In this document: positions 2-34,647 of the stretch, one piece after another
Position numbering within the stretch: position 1 is the stretch's first letter
Layout of the letters: each line of letters opens with the position of its first letter
NCBI GenBank assembly: GCA_035629175.1
Contig: DASPIL010000103.1
Span: 62,001 to 126,000, forward strand
DNA: 64,000 nt
Reading direction: 5' to 3'
Source of the DNA: Verrucomicrobiia bacterium
Lineage (GTDB): Bacteria; Verrucomicrobiota; Verrucomicrobiia; Limisphaerales; DASXHY01
Position numbers and translations under genes: made by a program
Notes under the pieces: generated by a model
Told to the model about the DNA's origin: nothing
Seen by the model: only the letters and a program-made list of their open reading frames with translations
Databases searched by the model: none

Positions 2-202
2 AATGCAGAAGGTGGATTGCATGACCCGGCGAAAGACAGTGCCGCGCCTGCGAGTGTATTGATTCCAAAACCAGAGGCCCGCGCACTGGTCGCTTACCTG
101 ATCAGCCTGCAAGCTTCGGCGCCGCTGTTTGAAGTTCCGCTTTCTGCTGCCGAGGCGCCCGCCGCCCCGGTCGCGACCAACGCTCCTCCTCCCGCGCAAT
201 GA
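2..202 (+). CDS. C-terminal end of a c-type cytochrome (cytochrome oxidase subunit), partial
   Basis: The reading frame is open from the first bases of the window and ends at 202, so only the last 66 residues are visible. The segment PEARALVAYLISL resembles the final helix of a class I cytochrome c domain, and it is followed by an Ala/Pro-rich tail. The stop overlaps the start of the next cytochrome gene (ATGA), so the two are probably co-translated. By context it may be the end of a CcoO-like subunit of a cbb3-type oxidase, but the heme motif lies outside the window and this is an inference. Confidence 0.6.
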   Translation, partial: NAEGGLHDPAKDSAAPASVLIPKPEARALVAYLISLQASAPLFEVPLSAAEAPAAPVATNAPPPAQ

Positions 203-31258: not shown

Positions 31259-31909
31259 GCCGAGAACGCCATTGAGGGCGTCAGCGAGGCGCCGGGCCGC
31301 GAGGCGGGTGTTGCGTTGAAGTTCCATCAGGCGAGGCACGGACCGCGGAGACTTCATCAAGGCCAGGGCGAGGCGCGGGATGGAAATCTTCTGGTCGGCT
31401 GTCAGGAGCGCGTTGAAGTCGAGCGGCATATCTTCCGCTGCCGTGTCCGACACTGCGCGCAAAGTGGCGCTCGGAATGGCCGCGTCACGACAGACGGTGC
31501 GAATGACTGCTGATTCCATTTCGACGGCGTCGCAGCCTGTGGTGCGGCGAAGTTCTTTCTTTTCCTCGACGGACACGGCGACACGCGTTGAACAATGAAA
31601 CGTGGCGGTTCGGGCGCCGTGTCGTGTGAAGAGATCAGCCAGCCCCGAATCGAAATCGGCATCGAACAGCAGATCGCCCACTTTCAGCTGCGGGTCGAGC
31701 GCACCTGCGAAGCCGCACGTGATCACGCGTTCAGGCCGCAGCGTGCGGAGCGTTTGCTGCAGTCGCGTGCTGGTGTTCCTGCGTCCCATTCCGGTGATCA
31801 GCACGCGGCTTCCTCCCGCGATCCGCTGCGGCGTGAAGAAGGCGGCCTCCTCCTTAACCGCGAAACAGATCAGGAGCGCCACCGCGTCAGGGGGGGACCC
31901 GCAGTTCAT
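31235..31909 (-). CDS. hpnG: Nucleoside phosphorylase/nucleosidase-like protein (HpnG-like)
   Basis: A 224-residue protein of the nucleoside phosphorylase superfamily. TGMGRRNTSTRLQ, CGFAGALDPQLKVGDLL and DAVEMESAVIRTVC (the MESA-type substrate site) are visible. Proteins of this type in hopanoid clusters (HpnG) release adenine from adenosylhopane, which fits the adjacent hpnD-hpnK genes; a methylthioadenosine/SAH nucleosidase role is the alternative. I start at ATG 31909, which overlaps the exonuclease stop as ATGA. Confidence 0.72.
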   Translation of the reverse strand: MNCGSPPDAVALLICFAVKEEAAFFTPQRIAGGSRVLITGMGRRNTSTRLQQTLRTLRPERVITCGFAGALDPQLKVGDLLFDADFDSGLADLFTRHGARTATFHCSTRVAVSVEEKKELRRTTGCDAVEMESAVIRTVCRDAAIPSATLRAVSDTAAEDMPLDFNALLTADQKISIPRLALALMKSPRSVPRLMELQRNTRLAARRLADALNGVLGSLRSAGV

Positions 31910-32628
31910 TTGATTCCGGCGAGCCGATCGCGCCAAATCTGGAACAATTGCACCGTTGCTTTCACATCACGCAGGCAATACTCGGCGATGTCGCGATAAC
32001 GCCCTTCAGCAAGCAGCGTGTTCACATCCATGCCGGTGACTCCATGGCTTTTCGGCGATTCAATGCCGAACGCCTTGCAGTAGAAATCGAGATTGAAGCG
32101 GCGGCCCGTGCCTTCGCGCCCGCTGACGCCATAAAATGTCAATTGTTCGGCAAGATCGCAGTGCGGATCGGTTTGATAGCGGTATCCCAGCCAGTCTTTT
32201 CGCGAGATGGGAACATTGAGCAGCGCAGAGCGAAGATACAGGAAGGGAACATCAAAGCCGCGTCCGTTGAACGTGACGATCGATTCATAATGGCGCGCGA
32301 CGTCCCAGAAAGCCGTCAGCAATTCCAGTTCGTCAACGCAGGGAACGAACTCCACAGAACCCGTTTCAGCGGAGGGTTCCTCCTCAAAATCTTCCGCCGT
32401 GAACAAGACCTGGCCGCGCTGTGTGTCGGCGTTGAGCATGGCGATGCAAACAACCTGCGCGGTGAAGGGCCAGAGATTGAACTGCTGCAGAAGTTCGGCG
32501 CGACGGACGCCGCGCGCGGTTTCATCGGGAATCTTCCCCGCGTCACGAAACAGGTATTCCTGTTGGGTTTCGTCGAATTGCTCGAGGGGAAGGGCGGACG
32601 TTTCGATGTCGAATACCAGTTTTGCCAT
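31906..32628 (-). CDS. 3'-5' exonuclease of the DEDDy (PolB-like/RNase H-fold) type
   Basis: A 240-residue protein with the three exonuclease motifs: FDIETSA at the N-terminus (Exo I), TFNGRGFDVPFL in the middle (Exo II) and EYCLRDVKATVQL near the end (Exo III, Tyr type). This set matches the predicted 3'-5' exonucleases related to the PolB proofreading domain. It likely acts on nucleic acid ends in the cytosol. Its stop overlaps the phosphorylase start. Confidence 0.87.
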   Translation of the reverse strand: MAKLVFDIETSALPLEQFDETQQEYLFRDAGKIPDETARGVRRAELLQQFNLWPFTAQVVCIAMLNADTQRGQVLFTAEDFEEEPSAETGSVEFVPCVDELELLTAFWDVARHYESIVTFNGRGFDVPFLYLRSALLNVPISRKDWLGYRYQTDPHCDLAEQLTFYGVSGREGTGRRFNLDFYCKAFGIESPKSHGVTGMDVNTLLAEGRYRDIAEYCLRDVKATVQLFQIWRDRLAGIK

Positions 32629-32653: not shown

Positions 32654-32697
32654 CCAGGATGGGAAACCTGTCATGCGGCCCAGGTTTTCCATCCTGG
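32654..32697 (-). terminator. 17-base-pair hairpin after the lysine-rich mini-gene
   Basis: CCAGGATGGGAAACCTG (32654-32670) pairs with CAGGTTTTCCATCCTGG (32681-32697) with one mismatch, across a ten-base loop. On the minus strand it begins 15 bases after the mini-gene stop and ends before the exonuclease gene. There is no T-run, so it may stabilise the mRNA 3' end rather than terminate. Confidence 0.5.
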
Positions 32698-32712
32698 TGT
32701 ATGCGGAGGTTG

Positions 32713-32763
32713 TTACTTCTTCTTCTTAACTGCTTTCTTTTTCGCTTTCTTCTTAGCGGCCAC
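32713..32763 (-). CDS. 16-residue lysine-rich basic peptide (histone-tail-like)
   Basis: A very short minus-strand gene starting with GTG and ending with TAA, encoding MAAKKKAKKKAVKKKK: ten of sixteen residues are lysine. It has a perfect Shine-Dalgarno sequence (GGAGGT, at 32771-32776) seven bases before the start, stronger than that of most genes here, and a 17-base-pair hairpin just after the stop. These signals suggest it is translated. The sequence resembles Lys/Ala repeats of bacterial histone H1-like tails; binding to DNA or RNA is a guess. Confidence 0.6.
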   Translation of the reverse strand: MAAKKKAKKKAVKKKK

Positions 32764-33033
32764 TGTACTCACCTCCGATCCGGTGTTTGGGGTTGCGCGG
32801 ATTGATCATGAAAGCGCTTTGCAAATTTGATTCTCGCTGTTTGTAGGAGAAACATGCGCCCACTGGCAAACTTTTTCTTCGCAGAGTTTATAATGCTCAC
32901 ACATGTTGCGCGCGAATAATCATCGCGACATTTGCTCGCGCGTGATCGTCGCAATGCTTTCGCACATCGAGCTCAATGCCGATTCCATTGAGCGCAATTG
33001 ATGTCGCAGATTTTTTGCAGAATCGTTGAGCGC
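32764..33033. other. 270-base gap with inverted and direct repeats, no recognised gene
   Basis: The gap lies between the lysine-rich mini-gene and the apgM terminator. It holds a perfect inverted repeat GCTCAATG (32971-32978) with CATTGAGC (32986-32993), and TTGAGCGCAA occurring twice (32988-32997 and 33026-33035). A TATAAT box is at 32889-32894 on the plus strand and TATAAA overlaps it on the minus strand, neither with a good -35 box. The mini-gene promoter must lie here, and a small RNA is possible. Confidence 0.35.
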
Positions 33034-33065
33034 AAAAAAAAACCGCTGCCGATTGCGGCAGCGGT
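33034..33065 (-). terminator. Rho-independent terminator of apgM
   Basis: On the minus strand ACCGCTGCC pairs perfectly with GGCAGCGGT across a six-base loop and is followed by eight T (nine A on the plus strand at 33034-33042, the last within the stem). It begins 18 bases after the apgM stop. Confidence 0.92.
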
Positions 33066-33082
33066 CATGCAAAATAAAATGT

Positions 33083-34306
33083 TCACGCACCGAACTTGTC
33101 GAACATCTTCGCGTTCGCCTGCATGTGACGAATCAGAAATTTCGCTTCGAAGACTCCAAGTGATCCGATATTCGCTCCGGTTTCAGTGAAGCGTTCGAGC
33201 TTGTCGGAGCCGCTGATCGCGGAACGCAGCAACACGGGTTGCGGATGCCACGAATGACCCTTGAGCGCGCACGGCGTGGAGTGATCGCCTGTGATCGCGA
33301 GTACGGTGGGCATCTTCTGCAGCAACACCGGCAACGCTGCGTCGAGTTCCTCGATCGCCTTTTTCTTCGCTTCGAAATTTCCGTCCTCACCCGCTTTGTC
33401 CGTGTATTTGAAGTGGATGAAGAAGAAGTCGTAGTTGTCGTATTCAGCAACGTAACGTTCAAACTGTTCGCGGATCGTTTGCGGGCCTTCAATCTTTGTC
33501 ATCCCCACCAGCTGTGAAAGGCCCTTGTACATCGGGTAAACCGCAAGGGCTGCCGGCTTCAACAGGTAGCGATCTTCAAAGAGCGGGATTTCCGGCTGAT
33601 GCGCGATGCCGCGCATGAGAAACCCGTTTGCGGGCTTTTCCTTCGCGATGACAGGCAGCGCCGCCTTGTAGAAGTCTGCGATCAACTTCGCCATCTTCTT
33701 TTGCCCCGCGTTCCTGGCATCGCGCGGCTTCACTGCAGGAATCGCGAATCCTTCGCGGTTTGGATCCGCGTCGGTGAGTGGCCCTTCCAGGCCCTTGCCA
33801 CGGAACACGACGACGAATCGATGCTCCTTGCCCGGTTTGATGATCACTTGTGTGTCACCAATCTTTTTGATTTTCGCGGAAAGCATCGCGCAGAGCTTCT
33901 CGCACGTTTCGGTGGGAATGCGGCCGGCACGCCGGTCCGTCACGATTCCTTTCGGATCCAGCGTCGCAAAATTGGCGCGTGCGCAGACGTCGCCTGGCTT
34001 CAACTCGACGCCGAGGCCCAATGCTTCGATGACTCCGCGTCCAACCTGGAACTCGAGGGGATCGTAACCAAACAATCCAAGGTGGCCAGGTCCGCTGCCG
34101 GGCGTAATCCCCGGGGCAACTGGAATCATGCGGCCCTGTGCTGCGTCCTTGGCGAGCTGGTCGAGGTTTGGCGTCAAGGCAGCCTCAAGAGGCGTGAGAA
34201 AACTCTGCTCGCGCGTTGCGATGTCGCCGAGCCCATCCAGCACGAGGAGCACCAGCTTGGCGCCAGTTTTCAGTGTCAGTTCCGAGTAAAGAGAATCCAA
34301 TTTCAT
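33083..34306 (-). CDS. apgM: Cofactor-independent phosphoglycerate mutase, archaeal type (ApgM)
   Basis: A 407-residue alkaline-phosphatase-superfamily enzyme that interconverts 3- and 2-phosphoglycerate without 2,3-bisphosphoglycerate. LVLLVLDGLGD gives the first metal ligand, ITPGSGPGHLGLFGYDP contains the catalytic serine, and ITGDHSTPCALKGHSWHP gives late metal ligands. I start at MKLDSLYSEL because the 83 extra codons of the longer frame are not family-like. It has its own terminator. Confidence 0.92.
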   Translation of the reverse strand: MKLDSLYSELTLKTGAKLVLLVLDGLGDIATREQSFLTPLEAALTPNLDQLAKDAAQGRMIPVAPGITPGSGPGHLGLFGYDPLEFQVGRGVIEALGLGVELKPGDVCARANFATLDPKGIVTDRRAGRIPTETCEKLCAMLSAKIKKIGDTQVIIKPGKEHRFVVVFRGKGLEGPLTDADPNREGFAIPAVKPRDARNAGQKKMAKLIADFYKAALPVIAKEKPANGFLMRGIAHQPEIPLFEDRYLLKPAALAVYPMYKGLSQLVGMTKIEGPQTIREQFERYVAEYDNYDFFFIHFKYTDKAGEDGNFEAKKKAIEELDAALPVLLQKMPTVLAITGDHSTPCALKGHSWHPQPVLLRSAISGSDKLERFTETGANIGSLGVFEAKFLIRHMQANAKMFDKFGA

Positions 34307-34647
34307 GTTCAGTATTTGTTCAAAGCCGGGTGTGCGTGTGCGAAAGCCGCTGTACGCGCGGGGCAGAGTCTCGAATAACAAGCCGGGACCGTCAACGGCA
34401 TTTCCGACGCATTCATTGCGGTGGGCGCGATATAAATCGGTGAGCTTCCACGCGTACCGATAGGGAGCAAATCCTGCCGAGTGGATTCGGCTCGTCGCTT
34501 CACTTTCGGTGCCGCGATGGCTTCCGCTATCCGAGGTTGTGCGGCGGTGTGACAAAAATGTCCGAAAACTGGACGCAACGTTGCTGTCGTGACGTTATCC
34601 ACTATCATTCAAGGAGTTGGCATTGCGGGCGCTTCGCCGATGCAACA
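34307..34647. other. 341-base divergent gap; no gene recognised
   Basis: This gap lies between the divergent apgM and alpha/beta hydrolase genes. Apart from a possible plus-strand promoter (34581-34608) and an AAGGAG at 34611-34616 that does not line up with the start used, I see nothing definite. Confidence 0.4.
34581..34608 (+). promoter_or_regulatory. Possible sigma-70-type promoter for the hydrolase-to-phc-like block
   Basis: TTGCTG (34581-34586) and TATCAT (34603-34608) are separated by 16 bases, 39 bases before the hydrolase ATG. Both boxes match consensus moderately. It is the best plus-strand promoter candidate ahead of the six-gene block. Confidence 0.35.

Follow-up and report, generated by a model that had tools for sequence, protein, structure and literature searches.

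Can sixteen codons, most of them for lysine, be a gene in their own right, and if so, what would such a product do in the cell? The question is raised by a micro-ORF on the minus strand (32763–32713) of a 64,000-nucleotide stretch of Verrucomicrobiia DNA, hereafter the window, which reads V/M-AAKKKAKKKAVKKKK and follows a perfect Shine-Dalgarno (SD) sequence. The initial annotation had proposed a genuine gene below the usual annotation limits, whose product resembles a free histone H1-type tail and might compact DNA, bind RNA or be secreted as a cationic peptide. The locus comprises the following features.

31906–32628, minus strand: downstream neighbour, a predicted PolB-type 3'-5' exonuclease (PF10108), assigned by profile and synteny
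32654–32697, minus strand: stem-loop 3' of the micro-ORF with a 17-position stem (16 pairs and one A·C mismatch)
32704–32710, minus strand: ACCTCCG past the stop codon, able to pair with CGGAGGT of the SD (32777–32771), a possible closing stem seen in a subset of relatives only
32713–32763, minus strand: micro-ORF, GTG to TAA, 16 aa (VAAKKKAKKKAVKKKK), from ORF reading, retention in relatives and codon-position bias
32769–32776, minus strand: Shine-Dalgarno sequence GGAGGTGA, with GGAGGT at 32776–32771, exactly 7 nt 5' of GTG
32840–32869, minus strand: candidate promoter, TTGCCA (32869–32864), 18 nt and TACAAA (32845–32840), by consensus match only
33041–33066, minus strand: intrinsic terminator of apgM, separating apgM from the micro-gene
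33083–34555, minus strand: upstream neighbour, the phosphoglycerate mutase gene apgM (PF10143)

The signals around the ORF largely agree with what had been claimed. The start GTG lies at 32763 and the clean stop TAA at 32715–32713, 10 of the 16 residues are lysine, and the perfect GGAGGT seven bases before GTG is found on the minus strand, which the initial annotation had not named. This motif extends to GGAGGTGA, which is complementary to the 3' end of 16S, and the spacing between SD and start is 7–10 nt in 78 of 78 family members. A 17-base-pair hairpin right after the ORF had also been described; its stem does span 17 positions, but one of them is a mismatch and the structure begins 15 nt past the stop codon. 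The candidate promoter pair sits between the apgM terminator and the SD of the micro-gene. Within the source genome (5.4 Mb), the Lys-repeat pattern has a single match, the micro-gene itself.

When 58 genomes of the order, one per family, were searched at the DNA level, several matched exactly at the mini-ORF, and the loci retrieved encode Lys/Ala mini-ORFs of 13–27 aa. In the cassette shared by genomes of this order (Pedosphaerales/Limisphaerales, Verrucomicrobia), the SD GGAGGTGA precedes a Lys/Ala mini-ORF whose last residues are KKK, and a strong hairpin comes next. The search for mini-genes with the same upstream site, which had been suggested as a check, gave a whole-genome match to SD, start and Lys codons in 101 of 320 genomes of the order, including a few chance matches recognized by inspection (e.g., G018 and G254), while the reversed pattern matched none of the 320. 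Across the phylum, 31 of 388 genomes match; outside the order about a dozen matches are real by translation and mostly encode longer products (22–81 aa). Altogether, we collected 89 distinct members of 12–97 aa (median 21), 41 of which have at most 20 aa. Loss of the frame or of the SD in relatives had been named beforehand as evidence against a gene; relatives retain both. A chance ORF is rejected by the retention of ORF, SD and hairpin in relatives together with the negative pattern control. Two thirds of the genomes of the order have no pattern match, hence the micro-gene is not essential for the group.

Some individual loci deserve comment. L223, a member from outside the order that contains cysteines (MATKKKAVKKCTKGKCGSKKKK) and has no strong hairpin after its ORF, is possibly a different or metal-binding variant. 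The record titles of L065, L075, L098, L101, L114 and L128 name Acidobacteria, Akkermansia muciniphila, Omnitrophota or Proteobacteria, yet their exonucleases are highly identical to those of the order, and these records are probably misnamed MAGs. L243 (contig C115) was discarded as a second copy in genome G002: its mutS shares 93% identity with the mutS of family f27 and the peptides are the same, such that it probably represents contamination from this family.

Among 38 pairs of like-length members that differ by no more than four amino acids, nucleotide changes at codon positions 1, 2 and 3 number 49, 69 and 242, a count that shows direction and is not a test, as overlapping pairs like these are not independent. 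Members make free use of all four Ala codons and of both Lys codons, and start with ATG as often as with GTG. The excess at third positions indicates that purifying selection acts on the peptide itself. With its own start signals, a terminator-like hairpin and relatives across Verrucomicrobia that mostly adjoin DNA-repair genes, the comparison identifies a genuine gene for a 16-aa, mostly-lysine protein that normal annotation misses, so that this part of the initial annotation holds. The conserved ORF, the SD and selection at the protein level are what an autonomous protein-coding gene displays. Very small autonomous genes are familiar from mccA (7 aa), PatS (17 aa) and bTHX (about 26 aa), which are likewise independent and equipped with their own signals but bear no sequence relation to the micro-gene.

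The flanking elements also recur in relatives. The energy of post-stop folding has a mean z of −3.7 in members compared to −0.15 in random windows of the same loci, and stems of at least 14 bp follow the ORF in 45 of 78 members versus 1 of 200 random windows. The latter figures refer to a strict stem criterion, as a control that tolerated bulges was not selective enough and scored 143 of 300 random windows positive. Of the 17 pairs compared across 23 alignable hairpins, 9 have changed on both sides, a level reached in 0 of 500 shuffles, with slid registers also far lower. The stems of other members, GACGACAGG, GAGGCTGGC and GGAAGTCCTG among them, are unrelated in sequence, as is expected of terminators, and 42 of the 57 long stems among members carry a T-rich tail. 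Given the covariation and the T-rich tail in most relatives, the hairpin is best read as an intrinsic terminator; no T run was found after the hairpin of the window, so termination may be weak there. A promoter-like pair, T(T/A/G)G(C/T)CA-16..18-TA.A.., lies upstream in 18 of 78 members where shuffles lead one to expect 0.4, an enrichment that is somewhat optimistic since the pattern was built from the same sequences in which it was counted. The complementarity between SD and post-stop sequence measures 7 bp in the window and 10–12 bp in some relatives (L243, L244, L245, L248, L006, L100), and this pairing could possibly form a stem that closes the micro-ORF and hides the SD. As a universal trait it is unsupported, with 12 of 89 members at p ≤ 0.05 and about 4.5 expected.

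The composition of the members is strongly skewed, with 50–63% Lys and 27–32% Ala (63% and 27% in the shortest class of 10–17 aa) and a conserved C-terminal KKK(K); the 2075 residues of 78 members include 7 acidic residues and 2 Phe, Trp, Tyr or Cys. Longer orthologues occur at the same locus, between mutS and the exonuclease gene, with 40 aa (G141), 58 aa (L084), 69 aa (G124) and 97 aa (G171), and are built from AAKKPAAKK-type repeats like those of H1 and Hc2. Lys-rich Ala/Pro repeats that vary in length in frame, here from 12 to 97 aa, are a mark of H1-like proteins, and the likeness to a free H1-type tail drawn by the initial annotation is thereby strengthened. In view of these same-locus orthologues, the 16-mer is to be placed at the short end of a length continuum and is not a fragment. 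A truncated remnant of a longer gene was rejected, as short members retain the N- and C-terminal signatures as well as codon selection.

In composition, the long orthologues resemble H1 tails, although their scores lie below the profile cut-offs and they are thus not assigned to the HC2 or H1-like families. None of the members searched reaches the cut-offs of HC2 (PF07382) or of the histone H1-like profiles NF038053 and NF038052: the 97-aa member matches HC2 weakly (21.3 bits, cut-off 40), the 58-aa member scores 20.3 bits (cut-off 80) in the HC2/H1-like search, the 21-aa member has no match and the 16-mer is below search length. Chlamydial Hc2 (HctB, PF07382), a DNA-binding protein whose size varies with its Lys-rich repeats (PMC2848022), and Bordetella BpH1 share with the family a basic character and, for the latter putatively, nucleic-acid binding, as well as Lys/Ala/Pro/Val/Thr repeats, a mostly missing folded domain and a size set by in-frame gain and loss of repeats (PMC2848022). 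The Chlamydiae also belong to the same superphylum as the hosts of the micro-gene. In contrast, Hc2 and BpH1 have 165–237 aa and occupy different loci, and the family has no known developmental link. The C-terminal KPAA domain of AlgP and PhaF has the same H1-tail-like composition, and KPAA-repeat peptides of AlgP bind DNA (PMC9239181), yet in these proteins the tail belongs to a larger polypeptide whereas in the micro-gene the tail alone is the gene. Similarly, the C-terminal tail of eukaryotic linker histone H1 and the Lys-rich tail of the mycobacterial HU-like MDP1 are K/A/P-rich disordered polycations, but the micro-protein is without a globular domain, far shorter and, at 63% in the 10–17 aa class, richer in Lys. 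The source genome encodes three HU-like proteins alongside the micro-gene, in none of which a long Lys tail was found.

The gene order varies. The arrangement apgM, micro-gene, exonuclease occurs in the window and in others, and many families have a divergent mutS followed by micro-gene and exonuclease; mutS adjoins the micro-gene without the exonuclease in f14 and f27, neither mutS, apgM nor exonuclease is found beside it in f12, part of f7 and the loci outside the order, and in G124 exonuclease and mutS both adjoin it. Loci with the divergent mutS neighbourhood include L133–L139, L146–L148, L165, L166, L170, L199, L208 and L258–L260. Of 196 genomes sampled from the order, 182 encode a stand-alone PolB-exonuclease-like protein (PF10108). 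Among GTDB genomes found via the exonuclease, 31 of 72 carry the micro-gene within 700 nt upstream of it; this set comprises named genomes with enough upstream sequence, titled mostly Verrucomicrobia, Limisphaerales or Pedosphaera. Broken down by upstream neighbour, the micro-gene is present with a divergent mutS in 12 of 12, with apgM in 12 of 20 and with others in 7 of 40; the comparison of mutS-linked loci with the rest (12/12 versus 19/60) gives a Fisher p of about 1e-5, uncorrected for phylogeny. The linkage to mutS and exonuclease hints at a DNA-maintenance setting, but the neighbours may reflect synteny only.

With this in mind, we consider it fairly probable that the product is a free-standing, nucleic-acid-binding microprotein of the H1-tail type that helps to condense or shield the chromosome or RNA. 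The micro-gene would represent the minimal form (12–20 aa) of a Verrucomicrobial H1-tail-like Lys/Ala(/Pro/Val) family. It would be transcribed from its own promoter up to the hairpin and, through its perfect SD, strongly translated, and the disordered peptide, with a charge of about +10, would bind nucleic acid phosphate electrostatically, like the H1 C-terminal tail or chlamydial Hc2. Once bound, it would help to condense or shield the chromosome (or RNA), and the standing linkage to mutS and the 3'-5' exonuclease would place it in DNA maintenance. Expression, nucleic-acid binding, its target and a role in nucleoid or DNA repair are here inferred, and at cellular salt the binding of DNA by a 16-mer of about +10 may be no more than weak.

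The main rival is a real microprotein that binds RNA or the ribosome instead of DNA, like the tiny basic ribosomal proteins bTHX and eL41. Strong SDs and very short, basic products are indeed typical of ribosome components, and the conserved C-terminal KKK(K) would suit such a role, as would the high RNA affinity of Hc2 (PMC2848022). However, a fixed rRNA-binding component would not be expected to range over 12–97 aa at one locus, most of the order's genomes do without the micro-gene, and mutS and an exonuclease adjoin it rather than ribosomal genes, which leaves this reading unlikely. Less probable again is a peptide that serves as counter-ion to polyphosphate or some other polyanion, modelled on AlgP, a protein with a KPAA-repeat region of 154 aa that is found at polyP granules (PMC9239181), as that link was shown for the entire protein, folded N-terminal domain included, and no polyP gene was seen adjoining the micro-gene. 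We regard as very improbable a leader peptide with attenuator that controls the downstream exonuclease gene. The window does present a K-rich ORF, a hairpin and, 25 nt past it, the exonuclease, with the SD complementary to the post-stop sequence. Yet cassettes of other families adjoin mutS without the exonuclease, or neither gene, and some lie 2 kb upstream of the exonuclease; a leader dedicated to it is excluded by these other contexts. Moreover, a leader function is not sensible for versions of 40–97 aa, the exonuclease gene does not belong to a lysine pathway, and the constant linkage to a regulated biosynthetic gene typical of attenuators was not found. Slightly weaker still is the view that conservation concerns the nucleic acid, RNA or DNA, in the form of a purine-rich tract and a hairpin, with an incidental peptide; the strongly conserved, covarying hairpin would fit, but the third-position excess, the free choice of Ala and Lys codons, in-frame length changes and the unfailing retention of start, SD and stop speak against it. 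A secreted cationic or antimicrobial peptide, compatible with the high positive charge, is the least credible, as signal peptides are absent from the 78 members and hydrophobic or aromatic residues nearly so, which leaves no amphipathic membrane-active face.

In summary, the initial annotation stands as regards the gene and the likeness to an H1 tail, whereas secretion is disfavoured; it did not mention the candidate promoter, the terminator-like character of relatives' hairpins, the continuum of lengths across the family or the synteny with mutS and the exonuclease. We found no prior description of the micro-gene in the open-access papers searched. Tentatively, we propose that a naked H1 tail forms an autonomous gene of 12–20 residues, linked to mutS and exonuclease at a locus that swings between 12 and 97 residues, which might be the smallest known histone-like protein and serve chromosome maintenance. 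Our study adds a conserved gene class far below the usual annotation length and shows that selection can maintain an H1-type polycationic tail as a whole protein of 12–20 residues. The linkage to mutS and exonuclease provides a concrete functional lead, and the natural series from 12 to 97 aa makes the polycation length needed for nucleoid organisation directly testable.
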